A DNA stretch of 64,000 nucleotides. Source: Bolinopsis microptera. Its lineage: Eukaryota > Ctenophora > Tentaculata > Lobata > Bolinopsidae. The number at the start of each line of letters is the position of its first letter. Positions within the stretch are counted from its first letter, which is position 1. The notes beneath the pieces were generated by a model that worked only from the letters and a program-made list of their open reading frames with translations, was not told the DNA's origin and made no database searches. Made by a program: the position numbers and the translations under genes. Positions 1,786-50,900 of this stretch are shown piece by piece. The stretch lies in contig NC_087080.1 in NCBI RefSeq assembly GCF_026151205.1, positions 11,269,837-11,333,836 of the forward strand. Reading direction: 5' to 3'.

Positions 1786-2944
1786 GAGAAGCTCTTAAGA
1801 TGGATTCAATCCTTCTTAACTGGTCGTGACCAAGTTGTTGTCGTGAACGGTGTGCATTCAGACAGCGCTAAGGTGTTAAGCGGGGTGCCTCAGGGCAGTG
1901 TTTTAGGTCCACTGTTCTTCCTGTTGTTCATCAACGACCTAGAGGACGTGGTTAAGCATTCTAGAGTGAGCTTCTTTGCAGACGATACTAGGGTTTCCAA
2001 GCAAATTAGCTGCCTTGAAGACTGCCAACTTCTTCAGACTGATCTTTACAGCATTATAGATTGGTCCCTATGTAACAACATGAAGTTACACGAGCAGAAG
2101 TTCGAACTCCTAAACCACCTACACAATAAGAGGAACTTATCAAGTGAACTTCCCTTCTACGTAGAAAGTCTCCTCTACAAGGTTTCTAGTGACGTCACTC
2201 TTTATCCCGTAGAAAACGTTAGAGACCTTGGTGTAAAAGTGTCAAGCGATCTGAGCTGGTCTAAACACGTCGGGGATATGGTCACCAAAGCTAGAAGTAA
2301 ACTGTCTTGGGTGTTCAGTGTGTTTAAGACACGGGATAAAGTGGTTATGATGACCCTCCACAAGTCTCTAGTCAGAAGCTTATTGGAGTACTGTTGTCCG
2401 CTGTGGGACCCAGTCAAGACGACAGAGATTCAGCTTTTGGAGGGGGTCCAGCGTACCTTTACAAGCCGCATTGGTGGTCTATACAGCTTAAACTACTGGG
2501 AGAGGCTAGCTCATTTGAAGTTAATGTCCCTGCAACGGAGAAGGGAGAGATACATCATCTTGGTGATGTGGAAAACGTACCATAACGTTGTTCCAAATAG
2601 CTGTAGCATCGAGTTTGTGGAAACATCCAGATATGGCACTAAAGCAGTTGTTACTTCTCTATCAAAGTCGAGTTCGATGAGAAACCAGACACTGTATGAT
2701 AGCTCGTTCGCAGTAAAAGGATCCAAACTGTGGAATAAGGTGCCGAGTGAAGTGAAAGCCGAGAAAACGTTTGCCAGCTTCAAAGTCAGTTTGTCTAAGT
2801 TTCTTGCTTTGATACCGGATAACCCTCCGGTTTCCGGTTATACGTGCAGCTGGTCGAATTCCTTGGTAGACTACACGCCATCACGGTGGTCAGACATCAG
2901 ATGACCCTTCCTGCTACGAGGATAAACCTTACCAAGTTACCAAG
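1786..2944 (+). mobile_element. 5'-truncated CR1/L2-like LINE in the satellite
   Basis: A non-repetitive block sits inside the GGA satellite. It encodes the reverse transcriptase C-terminal half and ends in two copies of an 8-bp unit (TTACCAAG). Short tandem repeats at the 3' end instead of poly(A) are typical of CR1-like LINEs. The satellite words on both sides resemble an uninterrupted satellite copy near 1171-1225, so the LINE entered after the satellite expanded. Confidence 0.75.
1789..2904 (+). CDS. Partial LINE reverse transcriptase
   Basis: Partial non-LTR retrotransposon polymerase that copies element RNA into DNA at the target site. The frame is open from the satellite junction. It contains the SGVPQGSVLGPLFF block, the FADDT catalytic box and the downstream region typical of CR1/L2/Jockey-like LINEs (ARSKLSWV, LLEYCCPLWDP, LLEGVQRTFTSRI, GSKLWNKVPSEV). 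The endonuclease and the N-terminal half of the polymerase are missing, so this is a 5'-truncated, inactive copy. The frame has no internal stop, suggesting a fairly recent insertion. A GTG at 1843 is not a true start; the original start was lost. Confidence 0.85.
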   Translation, partial: KLLRWIQSFLTGRDQVVVVNGVHSDSAKVLSGVPQGSVLGPLFFLLFINDLEDVVKHSRVSFFADDTRVSKQISCLEDCQLLQTDLYSIIDWSLCNNMKLHEQKFELLNHLHNKRNLSSELPFYVESLLYKVSSDVTLYPVENVRDLGVKVSSDLSWSKHVGDMVTKARSKLSWVFSVFKTRDKVVMMTLHKSLVRSLLEYCCPLWDPVKTTEIQLLEGVQRTFTSRIGGLYSLNYWERLAHLKLMSLQRRRERYIILVMWKTYHNVVPNSCSIEFVETSRYGTKAVVTSLSKSSSMRNQTLYDSSFAVKGSKLWNKVPSEVKAEKTFASFKVSLSKFLALIPDNPPVSGYTCSWSNSLVDYTPSRWSDIR

Positions 2945-3838
2945 TTAGTTAGGAGGACCCAGGAGGAGGAGGACTGAGGACCGAGGAGGAAGAGGAGGAG
3001 GATGAAGAGGAGGAGGAGGACCCAGGAGGAGGAGGACTGAGGAGGAGGACTGAGAAGGACTGAGGAGGACTGAGGAGGATGGTTGAGGAGGATGACTGAG
3101 AGGGAAGAGGAGGAGGAGGACTGAGGAGGACTGAGAAGGAGGAGGAGGAGGAGGTGGACTGAATAGGAGGAGGAGGAGGGGGACTGGGGGAGGCCTGAGG
3201 AGAAGGATGAGGAGGACGACTGAGGAGGACTGAGGACTGGGGAGGAAGAGGAGGAGGATGAAGAGGAGGAGGAGGACCCAGGAGGAGGACCCAGGAGGAG
3301 GACTCAGGAGGAGGACTCAGGAGGACGAGGAGGACTGGGGAGGAGGAGGACTGTTGAGGACTGATGAGGAGGACTGAGGACGAGGAGGAGGAGTAGGAGG
3401 AGGACTGAGGAGGGGAGGAGGAGGATGACTGAGAGGGAAGAGGAGGAGGAGGAGGAGGAGGACTGAGGAGGACTGAGAAGGAGGAGGAGGAGGAGGACTG
3501 AATAGGAGGAGGAGGAGGGGGACTGGGGGAGGACTGAGGAGGAGGATGGAGGACTGAGGAGAAGGATGAGGAGGACGACTGAGGAGGACTGAGGACTGAG
3601 GAGGAACAGGAGGAGGATAAAGAGGAGGAGGACCCAGGAGGAGGACCCAGGAGGAGGACTCTGGAGGAGGACTCAGGAGGAGGAGGAGGACTGGGGAGGA
3701 GGAGGACTGTTGAGGACTGATGAGGAGGACTGAGGACGAGGAGGAGGAGTAGGAGGAGGACTGAGGAGGGGAGGAGGAAGAGGACTGAGGAAGATCAGGA
3801 AGACCCAGGGGGAGGAGGAGGAAGAGTAGGAGGAGGAA
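2945..3838 (+). repeat. GGA/GAC-rich satellite, right block
   Basis: Continuation of the purine-rich satellite beyond the LINE. Segments of the left block (the GAGGACCGAGGAGGAAG region, the GACTGAATAGG region) recur here. The 180-residue frame on the minus strand is low-complexity serine/proline/leucine and is not a gene. Confidence 0.9.
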
Positions 3839-8465: not shown

Positions 8466-8608
8466 TTAAAGGACCAGTTAACTGAAAAAAAAGTTATCCT
8501 CATATTTTGACAGATTGTGACAAATAGCAAACTAAGCAACGAGTCGAAATTCCTAAATCTCTAACTGCTCTCTAACGCGTGTAAATAGCGTTTGTATTAT
8601 TTTGGTGA

Positions 8609-8636
8609 TGACGTCACGAAGTCCCTCATTGCGCGC
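8609..8636. repeat. Inner inverted repeat with TGACGTCA palindrome (left)
   Basis: Matches 13455-13482 in inverse orientation with one mismatch. TGACGTCA is the consensus CRE/ATF site, so it could serve as a transcription-factor or transposase binding site. That role is inference. Confidence 0.6.
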
Positions 8637-8822
8637 GCAGAGGCTCTGAGGAGCTCGCGTGACTGTATTTTACAGGTAGAAATTGGACATAATACACAAC
8701 TTTAGAGTTAGACAATAAAAAGAGCTTAATTAACCGACACAAATGGTTCAAATTAGTAGATCATAAGAATCTTGAGATACTTAAAAATATAATCAAAGTC
8801 ATTATATAGCTAGCTATATGAT

Positions 8823-11210
8823 CTATTTTCCCATTCTGCTCAATCTTTTCTGCTCTAACAACACTTTGCTAGGTTTCTCAGCAGTATGAAACCTTTTCGG
8901 CACAACCTTACGCTTATATCTACCTAGGTCAATAGGAAGCTTGGTGTTGCTTTTAACATGGTTTTGAACAAGTTCTAAAAATGACTTCTTGTACGAAATA
9001 TTGTCTCTAAAATAGTTATTTTTCAAAACATATTGTTTTTGAGCTCTTGAGTAGGCAACTTTAGTCCTTGGTTTTGAAGTCGTCCCTATTCTCAGGTTTT
9101 TGTTGTGCTCAATACAGACCAGCATCATCAGGACGATAGTAGAATCCATAGAAAAAGCTTTCCTTTTCGGCAAATACTTTAATTTGGCACAGTGGAGTGC
9201 TTCTAGTGCTCCGGTATGGAGGAATTTTGCGCACTTTTTCATGGAATTACACATTCTAGTATTAGTAATAACCTTAAACAGAGCCTCAAAGTCAGAATCG
9301 CCTATTTTAAACCACATCCCTTTCCTGCTCGCACCCTTTGTCAGTGTTTGATGCAAGCACTTTTGGTTGAGCTTGTCTAAAGTTGGAGGCTTAGGGTAAG
9401 GTTTGGTACCCTTTAATGTCTTAAACTGTTGGTGGATTTTTCTTCTGTTCCCCCACGCGTGAATATTGAGTACATGAAACAGTGAAGCGTGAAAAAGTTC
9501 CATTAAAAGTTCAGGGTTACCGTTACAGTTTTGAGCTGACCACCAAAAGTGGTTTACGAGGGAATTTTCCCATGACGCAATTTTTGGGTTTTTCTTGCTG
9601 GCTTTTTTAAACTTCTTCCTCAGGGATTTACCAAAATGCCAAATGTCATACGAATGTTGAACAGAGGGGTAACTTTCACGCATTAGTTTGCCGATCCCAA
9701 TATGTGCATCCGTTACAAAACTAGTTATTTTCAACTGGTCCTCTTCTGTTAACATCTTGAGAATTTCTTCGCACGCATTCCGCTCTAGTTCCCCCTCATA
9801 CTGGCCCTTCTGGATGGGTAAAAAGTCCACGATCCTATCAGTTCCACACTGCATGAGCGTGTATGTGCAAAATTTTGCACTATACCCCGGACTATCGTAT
9901 TGTGCGTCACCACAAATAGTCACTTCGTCACATTTTTTCAAGTCTTCGATTGTTTTAGTTCTCATCAAAGCATAATCCCTCGCAATTACTGGATAGAGCC
10001 AAGTCTTGACTAATTTGTAGAACGCAGGTTTAGATAAAGGGGGAAGTTCAAGAAGCTTGAAAAATGTTTCAAATGTCGAATAACCTAGCCCACTGAGTGT
10101 TGCAGCAGCGCTTAATCTAACGTTAAGGAGTGCGATTCGATGTGGCATATCACCCGACCGCCAAACAAAGCTGTGTCCCATTAAGCACATACACTCCACT
10201 GCTACAGCAGATCCCGAATAGTTGGTTTTAATAGATTCAACTGGAGAACTGCAATGCAGACAGTATTTAAAGAGTTGCAGTAGCATTTCAACGTCAACTA
10301 TGACAGATTTCACGGGTGTTATCTTATTTATGTTTCGTTTTTGGCTTGTAAATGTTTTATTTACTGACATTGACAAAGCATTTTGATTGTGAGCACTATT
10401 TGTCGGAAGAAACGAATAATCTGCACTACCAGTGTATATTATATCACGATCATCTAACACAATTTCATCCTCTGAACCTAAACTCTGCACTACGGACTCG
10501 TTTTCTCTAATGTCCCGAACATTGTTACTTTTACAGCAATTACTGCATCTGAAACATTCTGTCTGAACATATACTGATTTCACACGGGTTTTAGTCAAAG
10601 TAGTCTCCTGAACCTGATCTAAAATACTTGGACATACCACGTCTAAGCCAAGACTAACTGGAGTCGTAGGGGCAGAGGAAGTGCTACTGCTAGGGGTTCT
10701 TAGAGACACTATTGCTTGATCATTTTTATCTATCAAAGACTTATTAACGTTCAATAAGTTATCTATATGCTCGATTGGGTTTGTCATTGTGAGCCGACGT
10801 TTAACTCCCGTACGTTTAACTTTAAGGACTGGTGTGTTTATACTGCTGGTGTTACTAACTGCTGATGCTGGCCGTGGTGTTCGCCGCTCTCCTGTCTCCC
10901 GTATCGTGTTGGGTATAGCGTCAGGTTTTAGCAGTATCGGAATCCCCTTCCAATGCTCGGGGTCCTGGATTGTGGTGCGATAGAAGGTGGTCTGGACAAA
11001 GTCATCATCGCAAAAATGATCAGAGCATATTCGCATGCTTTTAAAATTCATGTGTGTCATTTCCCTGTCAATTCTAGAAACCCACATTCTCGTACGTGAA
11101 TAAGCCTTATTGTTCTCCAACGGAAACTTATAGAAGCGAATAAAGTTTCGGTAACTGCTCTCATCCCGTCCAAGACGCTTAGTGCAGTTGTATGCGGCAC
11201 AGAAACTCAT
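8823..11210 (-). CDS. Kolobok THAP-domain DDE transposase
   Basis: Transposase expected to bind the element ends and cut and paste it into TTAA sites. The 795 residues begin with a THAP zinc finger (about 1-100): C4, C9, W43, the CSDHF motif at 62-66 and a terminal KPDAIPN. A Ser/Thr-rich linker follows, then cysteine clusters (CFRCSNCC at 219-226, CLHC and CMCLMGH at 317-345). The RNase-H-like core gives candidate catalytic residues D435 (GDAQYDSPG), D501 (VTDAHIG) and E670 (HTGALEALH). These follow the pattern of Kolobok transposases; the exact triad is inferred. The frame is uninterrupted and intronless, with the ATG just before the THAP cysteine. The neighbour gene at 12080 is divergent. 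Confidence 0.9.
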   Translation of the reverse strand: MSFCAAYNCTKRLGRDESSYRNFIRFYKFPLENNKAYSRTRMWVSRIDREMTHMNFKSMRICSDHFCDDDFVQTTFYRTTIQDPEHWKGIPILLKPDAIPNTIRETGERRTPRPASAVSNTSSINTPVLKVKRTGVKRRLTMTNPIEHIDNLLNVNKSLIDKNDQAIVSLRTPSSSTSSAPTTPVSLGLDVVCPSILDQVQETTLTKTRVKSVYVQTECFRCSNCCKSNNVRDIRENESVVQSLGSEDEIVLDDRDIIYTGSADYSFLPTNSAHNQNALSMSVNKTFTSQKRNINKITPVKSVIVDVEMLLQLFKYCLHCSSPVESIKTNYSGSAVAVECMCLMGHSFVWRSGDMPHRIALLNVRLSAAATLSGLGYSTFETFFKLLELPPLSKPAFYKLVKTWLYPVIARDYALMRTKTIEDLKKCDEVTICGDAQYDSPGYSAKFCTYTLMQCGTDRIVDFLPIQKGQYEGELERNACEEILKMLTEEDQLKITSFVTDAHIGIGKLMRESYPSVQHSYDIWHFGKSLRKKFKKASKKNPKIASWENSLVNHFWWSAQNCNGNPELLMELFHASLFHVLNIHAWGNRRKIHQQFKTLKGTKPYPKPPTLDKLNQKCLHQTLTKGASRKGMWFKIGDSDFEALFKVITNTRMCNSMKKCAKFLHTGALEALHCAKLKYLPKRKAFSMDSTIVLMMLVCIEHNKNLRIGTTSKPRTKVAYSRAQKQYVLKNNYFRDNISYKKSFLELVQNHVKSNTKLPIDLGRYKRKVVPKRFHTAEKPSKVLLEQKRLSRMGK

Positions 11211-12079
11211 GAGTCATTTATCTAAAATTAAGCTGTTAGTGTTCATGATCAACCTATGGCGACAATGTTTTACGTGAAATGTTAAAAGATCATAGTTTAA
11301 GAATTTTATAGATTAACATTTGTCATCTAGCCATCTCAGAATCAATCGCACCGTAATATATTATGGCTAAAGAATAATAGGGTCTCGAAAATTCTATAGT
11401 TTTTCAGTGGGTCGATTGACTGCAGTCTGCACTTGGTATTTAATTTTACCAGTAGTTTATTTATGGTAATACAATTAGGATGACAACTATAGGTAAGTCA
11501 AATTCAAAACACACCGCATACCGTACACTTCAATCAGGTATTTGGTATCCCGGGTATTTTTTGCGGTAATTCGGTTCCCACGGCACCATTCTGATAGGAG
11601 CTACTACTACTGGCTCCAATCGGAATGGTCCCGTGGGAACGGCCGTAAAATAGCCAGACTTCTTGTCTCCTGTACTGTCTAGCACGTGTGGATTATACAG
11701 TAAGAAATTCCGCTATGCAATAAATATAATTGCTCTCGGATCAAACTCTTTTAGGAGAGCGGACTATTCGACTGCTCGTATTCTTCCGAACAGCTGTAAT
11801 ATTATATTACAGAGTTACACTCTGATCATTTATATTCAACTATTTAATATACATTATTGAGCGAGTGTAGTTGATCAAGTCAAAAGTTGAAGTTTGAAAT
11901 ACACCCTGACCCTTTTATCCGTTCATATATTATTACATAGTACATACAGATCCAAGATTTAGGCCTTTATATAGACTTTGAAATTATAAGAAGCAAATAA
12001 AATTAAAATATTTTGAAAATGTCTTGGTTTTAGGAGTAAGAGTCTGAGTAGTAAGGAAGATTACGTACTACATTTACCA
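11211..12079. promoter_or_regulatory. Shared intergenic region of the divergent transposon genes
   Basis: Lies between two outward-facing starts and should hold both promoters. A strong hairpin sits at 11568-11650: left arm CGGTTCCCACGG...ACCATTC, right arm GAATGGTCCCGTGGGAACGG, loop about 10 bp. I could not assign TATA boxes confidently. Confidence 0.45.
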
Positions 12080-12805
12080 ATGGCTAATGACTTGGACAAC
12101 AATTCCACTGAGCATGACGTGCAAAGTGACTCAAGCTCTGCAGAAGTAACTTCTGATTCAAGTAGTGAGGAGGAAAACGAGAACATTCCGGATGACTGTG
12201 GGGTGATCAACAATTCAACATCCATCATGTACAGTTTGGCATTTGACCCCTATCGGCTAGATCTCAGTGACCATGATAGCGACCAAGAACTTTGTAAGGA
12301 GCAGGACTGTGACACAGATGAAGAGGACGATGACGTAGAAGATCGGTTGTGTGCTCCCGTTAGTGTTCACTCAAAAGATTGGTGTATTTGTGGGAAATGC
12401 GAAACACTACCTGAAGGGGAAGTTTCCTACTGTTGCTCTGACGTTAACGTTGTTCGAGACATGATGGAAACAGAAAATCAATGTATAACTGAACACAGCA
12501 AATTTTGCAATTTTATTTTAAATAGAGACGCATTAGAAATGGCCACATATGGTCACAAAACTATTAGTTATCCGGATAAAGATGACCAGGAGAGTTTCCA
12601 CCAACTTCTACGCCATACAGCTTATAGATCCTTTCTAAATTTGTTAGAGTTTCATGGACTGGGGAAAAATAATCGGTACAGGCTCCCTGCGTGTGTAATC
12701 CAATCAATAAGAACCAAATATCCGAGCATTTCAAACGAGTACGTGGGTTTTAAAGAAAGCGAATTTTCATCTCAATCCAACTGTAATACACTCCAACAAT
12801 TCTAG
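12080..12805 (+). CDS. P2X7 C-terminal (ballast)-type domain protein in Kolobok
   Basis: Second gene of the Kolobok element, 241 residues, intronless. Residues 1-95 are Ser/Asp/Glu-rich and disordered-looking. Residues 100-227 match the pattern of the cytoplasmic ballast domain of the P2X7 ATP-gated channel and its stand-alone invertebrate relatives: DWCICGKC at 100-107, CC at 118-119, CITEH at 135-139, AYRSF at 181-185, then RLPACVIQSIRTKYP and YVGF. In P2X7 this domain binds a zinc cluster through cysteines and a guanine nucleotide. There are no membrane helices, so this is not a channel. Its role in transposition is unknown. The start is the first ATG before the acidic region. An AATAAA lies at 12908-12913. 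Confidence 0.8.
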   Translation: MANDLDNNSTEHDVQSDSSSAEVTSDSSSEEENENIPDDCGVINNSTSIMYSLAFDPYRLDLSDHDSDQELCKEQDCDTDEEDDDVEDRLCAPVSVHSKDWCICGKCETLPEGEVSYCCSDVNVVRDMMETENQCITEHSKFCNFILNRDALEMATYGHKTISYPDKDDQESFHQLLRHTAYRSFLNLLEFHGLGKNNRYRLPACVIQSIRTKYPSISNEYVGFKESEFSSQSNCNTLQQF

Positions 12806-12947
12806 TTTCTATGCATTTGTAGTACTTACCCTACTTAGGGATCGTCAATGTCTATTTATAGTTCAATTCACTTAGATATTCGTATATTATGTTTTGTTTT
12901 TTATTCAAATAAAAGTGTCTACTTGAATCATATACTCGGCTGAAAGC

Positions 12948-13443
12948 AACAACAACAACAACAAGGTGATAGCCAAAACTATAAGGATTTTGGAGAACTA
13001 GGGAAATAGTCATAATTCTAAAATTTGAGTGAGTTACACGTGTTTTATTGACAATGATAAACATTTGTAATGTATTACGCTATGCCGTGCGTTCTGGAGG
13101 TTAATAAAGAGTAGGAGTAGCGGTAACAAAGCAACAACAACAACAAGGTGATAGCCAAGACTATAAGGATTTTGGAGAACTAGGGAAATAGTCATAATTC
13201 TGAAATTTGAGTGAGTTACACGTGTTTAATCGACAATGATAAACATTTGTAATGTATTACGCTATGCCGTGCGTTCTGGAGGTTAATAAAAAAGTAGGAG
13301 TAGCGGTAACAAAGCAACAACAACAACAAGGTGATAGCCAAGACTATAAGGATTTTGGAGAACTAGGGAAATAGTCATAATTCTAAAATTTGAGTGAGTT
13401 ACAGGTGTTTTATTGACAACGATAAACATTTGCAACGTATTAC
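12948..13443. repeat. Tandem repeat of about 182 bp, 2.7 copies, in Kolobok
   Basis: Units starting with (CAA)n-GGTGATAGCC recur at about 12963, 13144 and 13328 and share the segments GGATTTTGGAGAACTAGGG and TACGCTATGCC. The array lies just inside the right inner inverted repeat, like subterminal repeats that bind transposase. Confidence 0.85.
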
Positions 13444-13454
13444 GAGCTATGCCA

Positions 13455-13482
13455 GCGCGCATTGAGGGACTTCGTGACGTCA
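13455..13482. repeat. Inner inverted repeat with TGACGTCA palindrome (right)
   Basis: Inverted partner of 8609-8636. The palindrome is at 13475-13482. Confidence 0.6.
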
Positions 13483-13635
13483 CGAGGCCACAGCTTATTA
13501 TTGTAATAACACGCGTTACACGTACGCTAGAGAGTTGGTTCTTTCGGCGATACGATTCTTTACCAGTTTGTCACAGCTGATTTAAATCTTAGCCAAATTG
13601 GAGACTACAAATTTTTCAGTTAACTGGTCCTTTAA

Positions 13636-19916: not shown

Positions 19917-21124
19917 TTTTTTTCTTTTTTTTTTTTTCTTTTTTTAAGAGAGGCTGGGCCAAGATAGCCCACGAGAGGATAGCATTGAGATGCTCTGCCT
20001 ACCTCTGGGGTGTGTCAACCTTGGGGAAGGTTGCCGGTGAAATCAGAGTGATTGGTGGAGGATGGTGTAAGATGTTATATGAGTCAAAATGATACGCTTA
20101 AATGCCAGCTGGGTTTGGAAAAGTAAAACGAGACGAGATAGCATATATGAGATAATACTTTAAGTCACCCCGGTCTGATCCAGCTCTTCCGGCACAATTA
20201 AGCGTTTGGTGCGGTTTGCGAAATTGACAATTGTGGTGATGTGTTGGTTGTCGAATATGTCATTGACAGAGAGGAAGTAGTCCTGGAAATATTGACCTCT
20301 AATTTGGGCAATAGCTGGACACTGTCCAAGGAAGTGTGAGACAGTTTCCTCTCCGTCGCCGCACATAGGACAAGCACTGGTGTTTGATTTGCAAATGGTG
20401 TGAAGGTGTTTGTTTAAGCCGCAGTGACCCGTGATGAGGTGAACTGCAGTTCTGTAATCTTGTCTGTTTTTGCTGAGTGTAGTGTTGAGGTTTTTGATGA
20501 TTTTGGCATGCTTGTGGCCGAGTGTCAGTTTGGTGTGTCTGGGACCGTCAGTTAACCAAGTTTCCTGATTCAGTCTGTTGACTTTGTTGTCGATTTGACG
20601 CTTGATGTAGGATTGTGGAACTGGACACTTCAAAGTGGATTCACTGATTGTACCAAGCTTGGCCAGCTCATCTGCTTTTTCGTTCCCCCACAATCCGATG
20701 TGTGCTGCAATCCATCGTATCTCTAGCGTGTTGTTGGATCCGAGTGCATTAAGAGAGTCGTAACAGTCTCTTGTAGTTCTACTCCGCGTTGAAAGCGCAG
20801 AGATAGCTTGTATAGATGAGAGACTGTCAGACCATATGATGATATGTGTGTTGGTATATGTAGAGAGATATTTGCAAGCTTCAATGATGGCGGTGAGCTC
20901 TGTTTGGTAAACAGTGCAATAATCAGGGAGCTTGAATGATCTTTCTTCAAGGGTGGTGTTATTGTTGTCAGTTGTGATGATATAGCCAGCCCCGCATCCT
21001 GAGTCTGTGAGTGACCCGTCAGTGTAGCAGGTGATCGTTTCACTGGTAATGTTGTCAATGGTGTTTTGAAGTGAATTTCTATATTCAGTGGTATCGGCTC
21101 CAGGAGTTGTGACGGTGAAGTGCC
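19917..21124 (-). mobile_element. 3' fragment of an I/LOA/R1-like LINE with exact 9-bp target duplication
   Basis: An A-rich tail (T-rich on the plus strand, 19917-19946) follows a coding fragment read on the minus strand. GTCCCGTCT occurs immediately outside both ends (19908-19916 and 21125-21133), defining the insertion exactly. The element is heavily 5'-truncated. Confidence 0.85.
20160..21122 (-). CDS. Partial LINE protein: RNase H and C-terminal zinc knuckle
   Basis: Fragment of a retrotransposon polyprotein; RNase H would remove template RNA after reverse transcription. The continuous frame holds the four RNase H acidic/His motifs: YTDGS, TELTAI, SDSLSSI and AAHIGLWGNEKADELA. It then has a CPMCGDGEETVSHFLGQC cluster typical of the C-terminus of RNase H-bearing LINEs. 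The frame runs unbroken from the 5' truncation point to the stop at 20160, so only a downstream piece is visible if a start codon is required. Endonuclease and polymerase are absent, so it is non-functional. Confidence 0.85.
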   Translation of the reverse strand, partial: HFTVTTPGADTTEYRNSLQNTIDNITSETITCYTDGSLTDSGCGAGYIITTDNNNTTLEERSFKLPDYCTVYQTELTAIIEACKYLSTYTNTHIIIWSDSLSSIQAISALSTRSRTTRDCYDSLNALGSNNTLEIRWIAAHIGLWGNEKADELAKLGTISESTLKCPVPQSYIKRQIDNKVNRLNQETWLTDGPRHTKLTLGHKHAKIIKNLNTTLSKNRQDYRTAVHLITGHCGLNKHLHTICKSNTSACPMCGDGEETVSHFLGQCPAIAQIRGQYFQDYFLSVNDIFDNQHITTIVNFANRTKRLIVPEELDQTGVT

Positions 21125-21149
21125 GTCCCGTCTGTTCCGACCCTTAGTC

Positions 21150-41900: not shown

Positions 41901-44900
41901 CTTAAACTGATTGTACACTACAATCCTCAAACTGATTGTACACTACAATCCTCAAACTGATTGTACACTATACTACTCTAGTTCATATCTGTGAGATGTG
42001 TAATATAAAGTGGAGCAGTGTGGCAGTTATTTAACTCGTTGTGCTAAGTATAGCAGTCTGCAGTTAGTGGGACTGTGTTAGTGGGATAGGTGTGCAAACA
42101 TTTTACCATATTTGGAGGAGTCTGTTGTAGTGCGGGCAGGGGTGTAGCCCCCCCCCCCCCCCCCGCTTCCTACACCCCTGAGTGCGGGCCATTATTTTAG
42201 TTAACCTTCAGTTCGAATATCTGGATCTTCCGTTAAATTGGTTGTCAGTATAACTGAAACTATTAGTAGTAGTTTGAAGAGCCTTGGAATTATGAGCATA
42301 AAAGTAGGGTTACTTCGTGACATATTCAATTCATACCACATGATATCCAATTCGTATTAGGTACAACTAATGTTCAAAATCATAAAATAATTTGATGATT
42401 ACTGACTCATACCTATAAATACAAGAAGCTGTGCTGTAACCACCTGTACTTTGGACGATACTCAACCGGTTTAGCTTAGTAACTACCTCCTCTTAGATAG
42501 TTCTTACTGCGACAAAAGATCTTATCAGCACCTCCACATCTAGAGTATAAAGTCAGTTTATTTTCTAATATTTTTCCTTTTCTCTGTTTTACAAGAAACT
42601 TGTTCTGTTAACTTTCTGTCTGATAATAAGGGCTTTTTCTCGCGAGTGTTTTATTATTACCTCGATTGCAATGCTGAAGATTTCAAATGTGATTTGAAGA
42701 TTCCCAAGAATGGCGAAACAACTACAAGCTATTCTTGAGAATGGCTTGAAGTTCTGCAAAGAAAAGTTCTGCAATGGAATAAACAGTTGAGTAATTATAA
42801 GCATCCAGATATTGTGTAAAAGGTACATAGGCTACGATGGTAATGTGGTTTAAGTTTGTTTTGAAACGTGACAGTAATTAACCAATCAGCTTGCAGCATC
42901 GAGCAAGGAAATCTCGGTATCATGGTCACCGGTCACGTGTCACTGTCACGTCTCGCTGTCACGTGTCACTGTCACGTGTCACTGTCACGTGTCACTGTCA
43001 CGTGTCACTGTCACGTGTCAAAATAAACTTGTACAACCTCTGTCCTCTCCGTTATATATTATCTAGTACCTTCAAGTTCATTCATTAAATACTCATTGAT
43101 TGCAAGTATTGCACATTCGAACAATGATGTACATTTTACTGGTCATAATGGACATAAGTTTCAATACCCACAAGAAATGCTCCAGCATATATTTTGTGAG
43201 CGGCTACTCAATTTCCCGACCGACAGTGTTTCATATTCCCGTTCTATGCAAGTGCCAACCTAATCAGTGGATCACCCTGAAAATCACGAAAAATATTTAT
43301 ATGATGTAGTAGCAAACTTAAAGCAATATCTAGGCCCAGTATAGAGACTTTTTACTGTACTGATAGCAGTTATGTGCTATGTTTCGTTTTTCGCTCTCTT
43401 GAATTGGTCGATCATGATTGATTGCTACCAGGTACGAAATGAGACTGTTATCTATATTAAACTAAGCAGGTATACCATGCATATGATATGCTCGGTTTAT
43501 ACTTTTATATTTTAAGGGGGGGGGGGCCAATGGATATTTTTTTGTGAAACTTGATTTCGAGATAGTAGTTGACCAACAAACTAAGACCAGTGACCGAACT
43601 TTTGAGGGGGTCCCGGACCCCAACCGCCAAACGGTGCGCGCAGGGCAGCCACGCCCATATTTGGTCCAAATTAGGCCCAATTTAGCCAAATACCCTGAAC
43701 ATGCCCAAAACCAAGGTTTATGGTGCTCTACTTGTAGCTAGTGGTCTCCTGAACTCGTATATGAAATTTCATCAAGATTGGACGAAAAATGACTGAGTTA
43801 TGAGCCAAAAACCATATGCCCATATTTGGGCATACGCACCAAATTTGGTAGATTTCGGCCCATAAATTGATCAAATATCAATATTTTTGAATGAAACTTA
43901 CTTTATATGAAAGGTAAGCCTAAACTACATATTATCTGTAAGTTATAGCTTTATATCTGTTTAAATGTGGATACTAAGGCGAAAAAACCACAAAAAATGA
44001 ACTAAATTGCCCATATCTCGGTTCGCGATATTTGCGGAATTGATCTCATTAAAATTGTAACAACTCAATCAGTTTTCAAAATTTTTGCATGAAATTTTCG
44101 GAATCGACTCGAAATTGCATTTCCACCTTATTTTAAATACGGATTTTTGATTTAGGCCTCCAAAAAAATTTGGCGGCCAAATTCCAAAATTATCTCACAA
44201 AAATTCAGAATTTGGCCGCCAAATCTAAATGAGTGATACACCCCACACGTACACCCCTAGGGCCTGTAGTGATACACCCCACACGTACACCCCTAGGGCC
44301 TGTAGTGATACACCCCACACGTACACCCCTAGGGCCTGTAGTGATACACCCCACACGTACACCCCTAGGGCCTGTAGTGATACACCCCACACGTACACCC
44401 CTAGGGCCTGTAGTAATACACCCCATACAACACCCCTAGGGCCTGTAGTGATACACCCCACACGTACACCCCTAGGGCTTGTAGTGATACACCCCACACG
44501 TACACCCCTAAGGCCTGTAGTGATACACCCCACACGTACACCCCTAGGGCTTGTAGTGATGCACCCCATACAACACCCCTAAGGCCTGTGCCCTGTAGTG
44601 ATACACCCCATACAACACCCCTAAGGCCTGTAGTGATACACCCCATACAACACCCCTAGGGCCTGTAGTGATACACCCCACACGTACACCCCTAGGGCTT
44701 GTAGTGATACACCCCACACGTACACCCCTAAGGCCTGTAGTGATACACCCCACACGTACACCCCTAAGGCCTGTAGTGATACACCCCACACGTACACCCC
44801 TAGGGCCTGTAGTGATACACCCCACACGTACACCCCTAAGGCCTGTAGTGATACACCCCACACGTACACCCCTAGGGTCTGTAGTGATACACCCCACACG

Positions 44901-47900
44901 TACACCCCTAGGGCCTGTACTGATACACCCCATACGTACACCCCTAGGGCCTGTAGTGATACACCCCACACGTACACCCCTAGGGCCCACAAGAAATGCT
45001 CCAGCATATATTTTGTGAGCGGCTACTCAATTTCCCGACCGACAGTGTTTCATATTCCCGTCCTATGCAAGTGCCAACCTAATCAGTGGATCACCCTGAA
45101 AATCACGAAAAATATCTATATGATGTAGTAGCAAACTTAAAGCAATATCTAGGCCCAGTATAGAGACTTTTTACTGTACTGATAGCAGTTATGTGCTATG
45201 TTTCGTTTTTCGCTCTCTTGAATTGGTCGATCATGATTGATTGCTACCAGGTACGAAATGAGACTGTTATCTATATTAAACTAAGCAGGTATACCATGCA
45301 TATGATATGCTCGGTTTATACTTTTATATTTTAAGGGGGGGGGGGCCAATGGATATTTTTTTGTGAAACTTGATTTCGAGATAGTAGTTGACCAACAAAC
45401 TAAGACCAGTGACCGAACTTTTGAGGGGGTCCCGGACCCCAACCGCCAAACGGTGCGCGCAGGGCAGCCACGCCCATATTTGGTCCAAATTAGGCCCAAT
45501 TTAGCCAAATACCCTGAACATGCCCAAAACCAAGGTTTATGGTGCTCTACTTGTAGCTAGTGGTCTCTTGAACTCGTATATGAAATTTCATCAAGATTGG
45601 ACAAAAAATGACTGAGTTATGAGCCAAAAACCATATGCCCATATTTGGGCATACGCACCAAATTTGGTAGATTTCGGCCCATAAATTGGTCAAATATCAA
45701 TATTTTTGAATCAAACTTACTTTATATGAAAGGTAAGCCTAAACTACATATTATCTGTAAGTTATAGCTTTATATCTGTTTAAATGTGGATACTAAGGCG
45801 AAAAAACCACAAAAAATGAACTAAATTGCCCATATCTCGGTTCGCGATATTTGCGGAATTGATCTCATTAAAATTGTAACAACTCAATCAGTTTTCAAAA
45901 TTTTTGCATGAAATTTTCGGAATCGACTCGAAATTGCATTTCCACCTTATTTTAAATACGGATTTTTGATTTAGGCCTCCAAAAAAATTTGGCGGCCAAA
46001 TTCCAAAATTATCTCACAAAAATTCAGAATTTGGCCGCCAAATTTTTTTGGAGGCCTAAATCAAAAATCCGTATTTAAAATAAGGTGGAAATGCGATTTC
46101 AAGTCGATTCCGAAAATTTCATGCAAAAATTTTGAAAACTGATTGAGTTGTTACAATTTTAATGAGATCAATTCCGCAAATATCGCGAACCGAGATATGG
46201 GCAATTTAGTTCATTTTTTGTGGTTTTTTCGCCTTAGTATCCACATTTAAACAGATATAAAGCTATAACTTACAGATAATATGTAGTTTAGGCTTACCTT
46301 TCATATAAAGTAAGTTTGATTCAAAAATATTGATATTTGACCAATTTATGGGCCGAAATCTACCAAATTTGGTGCGTATGCCCAAATATGGGCATATGGT
46401 TTTTGGCTCATAACTCAGTCATTTTTTGTCCAATCTTGATGAAATTTCATATACGAGTTCAAGAGACCACTAGCTACAAGTAGAGCACCATAAACCTTGG
46501 TTTTGGGCATGTTCAGGGTATTTGGCTAAATTGGGCCTAATTTGGACCAAATATGGGCGTGGCTGCCATGCGCGCACCGTTTGGAGGTTGGGGTCCGGGA
46601 CCCCCTCAAAAGTTCGGTCACTGGTCTTAGTTTGTTGGTCAATTGCTATCTCGAAATCAAGTTTCACAAAAAAATACCCATTGGCCCCCCCCCTTAAGCG
46701 GATTAATTAAGTCTACTCTGAAAAATGTAACCACTTCCACGAAGTAATCAGAATTCACATCTGGGACGGAAGAAACCTTAATATTCACCAACTTTCGGGA
46801 GGTGTTCAGGAATTCCTGTGTAGCCAGTGTTTACATATTTATTTTCACCTCATTTAGATTTGAAAGGACAGGTTAGGGTACCCTATTTAAATAGTTCTAA
46901 ATGACTAAATATAGAACCGTTTACAATTTCTCATCAAGCTTCCATATCATAATTCAGTATACATATTATATGTCGACTATCCGACTATCGAGTCAAGTCA
47001 TAAATCATGAAAATCAGTTTGACGTATTATTAATTATTTCGCCATAATTATATCCTGCATACAACATATCAGTATTAGATATACATAATGGTCAGTTCAG
47101 ACGCTGTCCCAAGTTTCTCGCAGTACACCCCCACACGTACACACGTACATCCCATACGCACACACGTACACCCCACACGGCCACACGTACACCCCTAGGG
47201 CCTGTAGTGATACACCCCACACGTACGTCGTACACCCCTAGGGCCTGTAGTGATACACCCCACACGTACACCCCTAAGGCCTGTAGTGATACACCCCATA
47301 CGTACACCCCTAGGGCCTGTAGTGATACACCCCACACGTACACCCCTAAGGCCTGTAGTGATACACCCCACACATACACCCCTAGGGCCTGTAGTGATAC
47401 ACCCCACACGTACACCCCTAAGGCCTGTAGTGATACACCCCACACGTACACCCCTAGGGCCTGTAGTGATACACCCCACACGTACACCCCTAGGGCCTGT
47501 AGTGATACACCCCACACGTACACCCCTAGGGCCTGTAGTGATACACCCCATACGTACACCCCTAGGGCCTGTAGTGATACACCCCATACAACACCCCTAG
47601 GGCCTGTAGTGATACACCCCACACGTACACCCCTAGGGCCTGTAGTGATACACCCCACACGTACACCCCTAGGGCCTGTAGTGATACACCCCACACGTAC
47701 ACCCCTAGGGCCTGTAGTGATACACCCCACACGTACACCCCTAGGGCCTGTAGTGATACACCCCACACGTACACCCCTAGGGCCTGTAGTAATACACCCC
47801 ATACAACACCCCTAGGGCCTGTAGTGATACACCCCACACGTACACCCCTAGGGCTTGTAGTGATACACCCCACACGTACACCCCTAAGGCCTGTAGTGAT

Positions 47901-50900
47901 ACACCCCACACGTACACCCCTAGGGCTTGTAGTGATGCACCCCATACAACACCCCTAAGGCCTGTGCCCTGTAGTGATACACCCCATACAACACCCCTAA
48001 GGCCTGTAGTGATACACCCCATACAACACCCCTAGGGCCTGTAGTGATACACCCCACACGTACACCCCTAGGGCTTGTAGTGATACACCCCACACGTACA
48101 CCCCTAAGGCCTGTAGTGATACACCCCACACGTACACCCCTAAGGCCTGTAGTGATACACCCCACACGTACACCCCTAGGGCCTGTAGTGATACACCCCA
48201 CACGTACACCCCTAAGGCCTGTAGTGATACACCCCACACGTACACCCCTAGGGTCTGTAGTGATACACCCCACACGTACACCCCTAGGGCCTGTACTGAT
48301 ACACCCCATACGTACACCCCTAGGGCCTGTAGTGATACACCCCACACGTACACCCCTAGGGCCTGTAGTGATACACCCCACACGTACACCCCTAGGGCCT
48401 GTAGTGATACACCCCACACGTACACCCCTAAGGCCTGTAGTGATACACCCCACACGTACACCCCTAGGGCCTGTAGTGATACACCCCACACGTACACCCC
48501 TAAGGCCTGTAGTGATACACCCCACACGTACACCCCTAGGGCCTGTAGTGATACACCCCATACGTACACCCCTAGGGCCTGTAGTGATACACCCCACACG
48601 TACACCCCTAGGGCCTGTAGTGATACACCCCACACGTACACCCCTAGGGCCTGTAGTGATACACCCCACACGTACACCCCTAAGGCCTGTAGTGATACAC
48701 CCCATACGTACACCCCTAGGGCCTGTAGTGATACACCCCATACGTACACCCCTAGGGCCTGTAGTGATACACCCCATACGTACACCCCTAGGGCCTGTAG
48801 TGATACACCCCACACGTACACCCCTAAGGCCTGTAGTGATACACCCCATACGTACACCCCTAGGGCCTGTAGTGATACACCCCACACGTACACCCCTAAG
48901 GCCTGTAGTGATACACCCCACACGTACACCCCTAGGGCCTGTAGTGATACACCCCATACGTACACCCCTAGGGCCTGTAGTGATACACCCCATACGTACA
49001 CCCCTAGGGCCTGTAGTGATACACCCCACACGTACACCCCTAGGGCCTGTAGTGATACACCCCACACGTACACCCCTAGGGCCTGTAGTGATACACCCCA
49101 TACGTACACCCCTAGGGCCTGTAGTGATACACCCCACACGTACACCCCTAGGGCCTGTAGTGATACACCCCACACGTACACCCCTAGGGCCTGTAGTGAT
49201 ACACCCCACACGTACACCCCTAGGGCCTGTAGTGATACACCCACACGTACACCCCTAGGGCCTGTAGTGATACACCCCACACGTACACCCCTAGGGCCTG
49301 TAGTGATACACCCCACACGTACACCCCTAGGGCCTGTAGTGATACTCCCCACACGTACACCCCTAGGGCCTGTAGTGATACACCCCACACGTACACCCCT
49401 AGGGCCTGTAGTGATACACCCCACACGTACACCCCTAAGGCCTGTAGTGATACACCCCACACGTACACCCCTAGGGCCTGTAGTGATACACCCCATACGT
49501 ACACCCCTAAGGCCTGTAGTGATACACCCCACACGTACACCCCTAAGGCCTGTAGTGATAAACCCCATACGTACACCCCTAAGGCCTGTAGTGATACACC
49601 CCACACGTACACCCCTAAGGCCTGTAGTGATAAACCCCATACGTACACCCCTAGGGCCTGTAGTGATACACCCCATACGTACACCCCTAGGGCTTGTAGT
49701 GATACACCCCACACGTACACCCCTAGGGCCTGTAGTGATACACCCCATACGTACACCCCTAGGGCCTGTAGTGATACACCCCATACGTACACCCCTAGGG
49801 CCTGTAGTGATACACCCCATACGTACACCCCTAGGGCTTGTAGTGATACACCCCATACGTACACCCCTAGGGCTTGTAGTGATACACCCCACACGTACAC
49901 CCCTAGGGCCTGTAGTGATACACCCCATACGTACACCCCTAGGGCCTGTAGTGATACACCCCATACGTACACCCCTAGGGCCTGTAGTGATACACCCCAC
50001 ACGTACACCCCTAGGGCCTGTAGTGATACACCCCATACAACACCCCTAGGGCCTGTAGTGATACACCCCATACGTACTGACCCCTAGGGCCTGTAGTGAT
50101 ACACCCCATACGTACACCCCTAGGGCCTGTAGTGATACACCCCACACGTACACCCCTAGGGCCTGTAGTGATACACCCCACACGTACACCCCTAGGGCTT
50201 GTAGTGATACACCCCACACGTACACCCCTAGGGCCTGTAGTGATACACCCCATACGTACACCCCTAGGGCTTGTAGTGATACACCCCATACGTACACCCC
50301 TAGGGCCTGTAGTGATACACCCCACACGTACACCCCTAGGGCCTGTAGTGATACACCCCACACGTACACCCCTAGGGCCTGTAGTGATACACCCCACACG
50401 TACTGACCCCTAGGGCCTGTAGTGATACACCCCATACGTACACCCCTAGGGCCTGTAGTGATACACCCCACACGTACACCCCTAGGGCCTGTAGTGATAC
50501 ACCCCACACGTACACCCCTAGGGCCTGTAGTGATACACCCCATACAAGTAACACTCACTGACTCACTGGATGGAGGTGAACACTGCAGCTCCAATTAATA
50601 AAAGGCTTTGTCACGTGCTACCAAATGTCACAAGGTCCTGTTACACCAACATATTCAGTAAGAGTGGGTGGTCGTGCACTTAGATACAGTTAAATATTGG
50701 TGATTACATTGGTTCAGTATTAACACCCGTAACAACCTCTGGCTATCTTCACAACACCCCACATAACAACTACAGCACTCTGTTTAACTAGGTTCCCAGT
50801 ATTTAACAACCTTCATATGTTGTCATGGTAACTGGTCTACCCGTCATATTACTGGTAGACCAGTTTAACTGGTCTCGGTAACTGATAACCGCATAGCCCT

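Follow-up and report, generated by a model that had tools for sequence, protein, structure and literature searches.

A complete Kolobok transposon in Bolinopsis microptera carries a KolX gene with a P2X7-type ballast domain

Kolobok DNA transposons were reportedly described in 2007 by Kapitonov & Jurka. In the main text of Kojima & Bao 2022 (PMC9587614), the KolX protein of the Kol0 lineage of these elements is presented as clearly similar to residues 476 to 595 of human P2X7, KolX-bearing elements are recorded from other animals too, P2X7 is traced to the joining of KolX to a P2X4-like gene, and Nanor is given as a likely domesticated KolX. Ballast proteins without the P2X architecture occur across animals according to the main text of Rump et al. 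2020 (PMC7016195), which also mentions an Ixodes frame with both THAP and ballast. We analyzed a 64,000-nucleotide (nt) stretch of the Bolinopsis microptera genome (contig NC_087080.1, positions 11,269,837 to 11,333,836; here called the window) and found at 8470 to 13631 a complete Kolobok-type DNA transposon with TTAA on either side and two intact divergent genes, one for a transposase and one for KolX. It shares with the Kol0 Kolobok elements (PMC9587614) the TTAA target, the RR...YY ends, a DDE transposase with a DxxH signature, and a second gene that at the sequence level is a KolX matching the P2X7 ballast, and it differs from them in nothing essential. We hold this identification with great confidence. 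The link between Kolobok and P2X7 has been in print since 2022 (PMC9587614), and the window element is a further member.

The boundaries of the element are fixed, because two more full-length copies on contig C1 each sit between TTAA with other flanks. The target site duplications of the window copy lie at 8466 to 8469 and 13632 to 13635, and TTAA, the Kolobok target site, stands at each end of all three copies. Just inside are 20-nt terminal inverted repeats that are 100% complementary, the left at 8470 to 8489 (plus strand) starting with AG and the right at 13612 to 13631 (minus strand) with CT at its end, in agreement with the 5'-RR...YY-3' termini of Kolobok (PMC9587614). With the TTAA counted, 8466 to 8489 and 13612 to 13635 form a perfect 24-nt inverted repeat. 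When TTAA and the adjoining 16 nt were scanned for inverted pairs, this end pair scored 16/16, and the best pair of one shuffle of the same stretch scored 11/16. Subterminal inverted repeats (28 nt, 96%) sit 120 to 150 nt inward of the element ends, at 8609 to 8636 on the plus strand, where the repeat contains TGACGTCA, and at 13455 to 13482 on the minus strand. In an alignment of 5170 columns, the three full-length copies differ pairwise by 21, 27, and 28 substitutions, with 21 and 28 separating the C1 copies from the window copy. The window element is young, structurally complete, and mobile. The first-pass annotation had described a TTAA-flanked Kolobok with exact inverted ends, an intact THAP transposase, and a divergent 241-residue gene, and its coordinates proved exact.

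The transposase gene (8823 to 11210, minus strand) is intact and encodes 795 residues, with domain matches to THAP (expectation value, E, of 1.3e-10) and to a Mutator-like transposase (E of 2e-9). The DDE residues and C/DxxH signature of Kolobok were found in the motifs GDAQYDSPG, TDAHIGIGK, YDIWH, and LEALH. The D, D, DxxH, and E columns are common to six aligned families, with ExxH replacing DxxH in one. We take the residues of these motifs to be catalytic, an assignment made by motif.

KolX (12080 to 12805, plus strand) is also intact and encodes 241 residues. Homology of this protein to the P2X7 ballast, as annotated earlier, was confirmed by a profile search: it matched Pfam P2RX7_C (PF20478) with an E of 1.8e-15 and 57.8 bits against a curated cut-off of 23.5, over residues 90 to 225 (12347 to 12754, plus strand) and profile positions 70 to 192 of 192. 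A search of solved structures returned P2X7 chains alone at an E of 1 or less (four distinct sequences; best, 3.1e-9). Identity to the rat P2X7 ballast is 37 of 119 aligned residues, and the window protein keeps the seven zinc cysteines (rat positions 477, 479, 482, 498, 499, 506, and 572) together with R546, H547, Y550, P570, R578, P582, Y588, and G590 (PDB 6u9v and others). Unlike P2X7, it has no channel part, carries an acidic tail in front of the ballast, and has I for R574 and S for K583. The NANOR and stand-alone ZCD proteins (PMC7016195) resemble it in having a C-terminal ballast on a short protein, with seven cysteines and with R546 and R578 kept; in the main texts of the two papers they are host genes for Rump et al. 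but KolX or domesticated KolX for Kojima & Bao (PMC9587614).

The genome holds at least 49 ballast matches, and our own-genome alignment covers 36 rows of these. Duplicate rows L001, L002, L003, L004, and L007 were dropped, the same places being covered by L011, L020, L015, L016, and L027. All seven zinc cysteines are present in 22 of the 36 rows; the other 14 comprise 13 truncated, frame-broken, or deletion-derived rows and L021, which has a single change. Upstream of the ballast, nine proteins (L011, L012, L014, L015, L016, L021, L022, L024, and window) have an acidic N-terminal tail with a net charge of -9 to -27, and eight of these nine carry an SDHxSD-type motif. In the window protein this reads P-x(5)-SDHxSD at codons 57 to 68 (12248 to 12283, plus strand). 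The general form, P-x(4-5)-SDHx[SD]D, precedes the ballast in 8 of 11 aligned proteins, has a weak version in L014, and is absent from L040 and L020.

We compared the positions of the ballast matches with those of 60 genomic hits to the window transposase. Of the 49 listed ballast matches, 24 have one of these related transposase hits no more than 5 kb away, where random placement would give 0.11; copies that belong to the same family are not independent in this count. Fourteen of these pairs are head to head, six are same-strand tandem with the transposase upstream, and four are overlapping remnants. We also searched 31 sources for inverted ends of 16 nt next to TTAA, with one shuffle each. 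Sixteen reached at least 13/16 (best shuffle, 12) and consist of eight full-length elements from five families and eight shorter derivatives; the other 15, L016 and L020 included, gave no convincing ends. Five TTAA families with different ends thus carry both genes: window/L009/L010, L011, L012, L013/L014, and L015. KolX is a regular passenger of these elements, not a one-off. The first-pass annotation had proposed a search for other elements with the second gene, and within this genome they exist; neither of the contrary outcomes it had envisaged, an insignificant P2RX7_C match or relatives consistently without the gene, was observed.

The protein distances of the two genes agree over six families (window, L011, L012, L014, L015, and L016), with a Mantel r of 0.906 that was reached by 3 of 720 permutations, so transposase and KolX were inherited as a pair. 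L011 and L016 entered this comparison by their longest transposase frame, and L016 has no recognized ends. The five two-gene TTAA families, these correlated distances, and the proximity counts contradict the view that a transposon captured a host ballast gene as a one-off event, as do the KolX elements reported from other animals in the main text of PMC9587614. We consider such a capture highly improbable, even though the single-copy ballast gene L020/L002, which lacks recognizable ends, indicates that host-type ballast genes may exist. A search of the genome for a P2X receptor joined to a ballast found one P2X match, on contig C3, at no ballast match. A pattern search of viral contigs for viral relatives matched 16 stretches, none of which was confirmed as a relative.

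Our favored reading, to which we give somewhat better than even odds, is that the element is a young, complete Kolobok of the Kol0 kind whose THAP-DDE transposase has KolX as its partner in transposition. Judging from the anatomy, the transposase would bind the terminal and subterminal repeats and cut and join at TTAA, and KolX would assist this machinery as a partner protein, a role for which we see the chances as evenly balanced. The acidic SDHxSD tail of KolX might bind either the transposase or a host factor, the zinc ballast would provide a compact fold for binding protein or nucleotide, and in P2X7 the ballast part alone would have been retained. KolX would thereby resemble the second proteins that Harbinger and MuDR elements require in addition to their transposases. 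Comparison of distant KolX sequences from different families shows long-term constraint: in five of 17 pairs, the proportion of synonymous differences (pS) is 0.80 to 0.92, near saturation, and that of nonsynonymous differences (pN) is 0.18 to 0.45.

A separate gene that is coinherited with the transposase fits any role that serves the element, and KolX could instead be an anti-host helper that aids persistence of the element, acting for instance as a decoy for, or an inhibitor of, a pathway of nuclear, nucleotide-sensing, or silencing function. The guanosine site of P2X7 bears on this alternative. At positions 546, 547, 574, 578, and 583 the window protein has R, H, I, R, and S, three of five as in P2X7. 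R546 and R578, which are kept beyond deuterostomes in the main text of Rump et al. (PMC7016195), with which our own residue counts agree, are retained in nearly all own-genome rows, as a helper of this kind would suggest. However, positions 574 and 583 are never R and K in any row covering them, and H547 is retained in few families. We regard the anti-host role as doubtful. We know of no host target of KolX.

Several results weigh against KolX as a transposition partner. For 25 of the 49 listed ballast matches, the surrounding 5 kb contain no related transposase match; some of these 25 adjoin a THAP frame (e.g., L005 and L008) and others are isolated. Recent constraint on KolX looks loose: of the 12 closer pairs, nine have a ratio of nonsynonymous to synonymous divergence (dN/dS) of 0.12 to 0.77 and three have 0 synonymous and 1 to 3 nonsynonymous changes, although these counts are small. 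Between the window element and L009, dN/dS is 0.72 for KolX versus 0.13 for the transposase. A single-sequence AlphaFold model of KolX had a mean predicted local distance difference test (pLDDT) score of 39 and was not used. Finally, KolX is not needed in cis, because nonautonomous relatives of the element spread after losing both genes. We also looked for retention of KolX in transposase-less copies as a sign of function and saw none; the KolX frames of L017, L018, and L019 are broken or truncated.

These nonautonomous relatives were found by DNA search as 34 left-end/right-end pairs, two of which share one right end, so that 33 distinct elements are represented; the span is 2.03 to 2.10 kb in 28 of the 34 pairs. 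About 230 nt are preserved at the left end (query 26/27 to 257) and about 305 nt at the right, with the subterminal repeats included, and these ends are likely the regions recognized by the transposase. Most relatives also preserve some intergenic sequence, and in many a piece of KolX about 45 to 90 nt long survives.

A second group of derivatives joins the two genes. Most matches to only the C-terminal half of the ballast are derivatives of the L015 family whose deletions have fused the start of THAP, in frame, with the end of KolX. The THAP-KolX derivatives (L029 to L035 and L041 to L043) have three different junction types. Seven copies, all with one of the first two junction types, span the entire 151-residue query at 96 to 100% with no stops, and L041 and L042 join nearly the entire THAP region to the last KolX residues. 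The three in-frame junctions may be due to chance, or their products may be repressor-like proteins. The main text of Kojima & Bao (PMC9587614) describes piggyBac elements that likewise have a TTAA target and a part resembling the C-terminal half of KolX, in contrast to our own C-half-only matches, which are L015-like Kolobok deletion derivatives. PiggyBac partners for the latter were sought by comparing lists by eye, and 0 of 26 piggyBac matches lay nearby.

The L020/L002 locus holds a 594-codon open frame (L020:8081-9865; C7:10030480-10032264) that is present in one copy and ends in ballast. It has a long proline/serine-rich front and all seven ballast cysteines but no acidic tail motif. The nearest 5 kb hold no transposase match, and across 10 kb no pair of ends scored better than shuffled sequence. 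We consider this frame a candidate host gene with a captured ballast. A tentative extension, which we think rather unlikely as a whole, is that KolX has two parts, with the acidic SDHxSD tail directed to the transposase and the ballast exportable, that hosts took up the ballast repeatedly (P2X7 and L020), and that the fusions act as repressors like those of the P element. At L025:885-1799 (minus strand), one open frame reads about 145 unrelated residues and then ballast, which is its sole Pfam match.

The opposite history is that the ballast began as an animal gene that an ancestral Kolobok acquired long ago, with P2X7 descending from the host gene. This would accommodate the L020 gene and the ballast genes that the main text of Rump et al. 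(PMC7016195) describes as linked to two neighbors from sponge to sea urchin. The ballast tree gives no direction: P2X7 has a branch length of 5 and a weak placement beside L014 (79/74) with a long-branch warning, and the tree was not used for this purpose. However, most ballast matches of this genome are associated with elements or with derivatives of them, the main text of Rump et al. left transposons unconsidered ("transpos" occurs in it 0 times), and Kojima & Bao, in the main text of PMC9587614, argue the reverse direction. We judge a host origin to be unlikely. The earlier suggestion that P2X7 gained its domain from a transposon is not established by our data. The wider idea of spread and capture is not new, having been published by Kojima & Bao 2022 (PMC9587614).

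Because the claims that Kolobok carries the ballast and that P2X7 captured it were already in print, the gain here is a well-documented example and a few anatomical details. Judged against the papers named, our additions are small: the head-to-head and tandem orders, the acidic motif, the THAP-KolX derivatives, and the L020 gene. The presence of both gene orders in one genome, the SDHxSD motif, and the THAP-KolX fusions were not found in the main text of PMC9587614. P2X7 is a much-studied inflammatory receptor, and to our knowledge no role has been assigned to its ballast domain. An intact family with three near-identical copies offers a concrete system for testing the original job of the ballast fold.

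The region between the divergent genes (11211 to 12079) is matched in part, at 11201 to 11858 (query 2762 to 3419), by the nonautonomous relatives at about 76 to 82%. An imperfect 33-nt inverted repeat with a 1-nt loop, a potential hairpin, lies between the two genes at 11574 to 11640. A direct-repeat search found three tandem copies of a 159-nt repeat, spaced 182 to 183 nt apart, at 12950 to 13473. These units lie between KolX and the right end, and the third overlaps the right subterminal repeat. Elsewhere in the window, open frames at 1696 to 2904 and 20160 to 21143 resemble, by eye only, the reverse transcriptase and RNase H parts of retroelements, and a long tandem array occupies 44544 to 50594, with frames that read as repeats in several frames on both strands.

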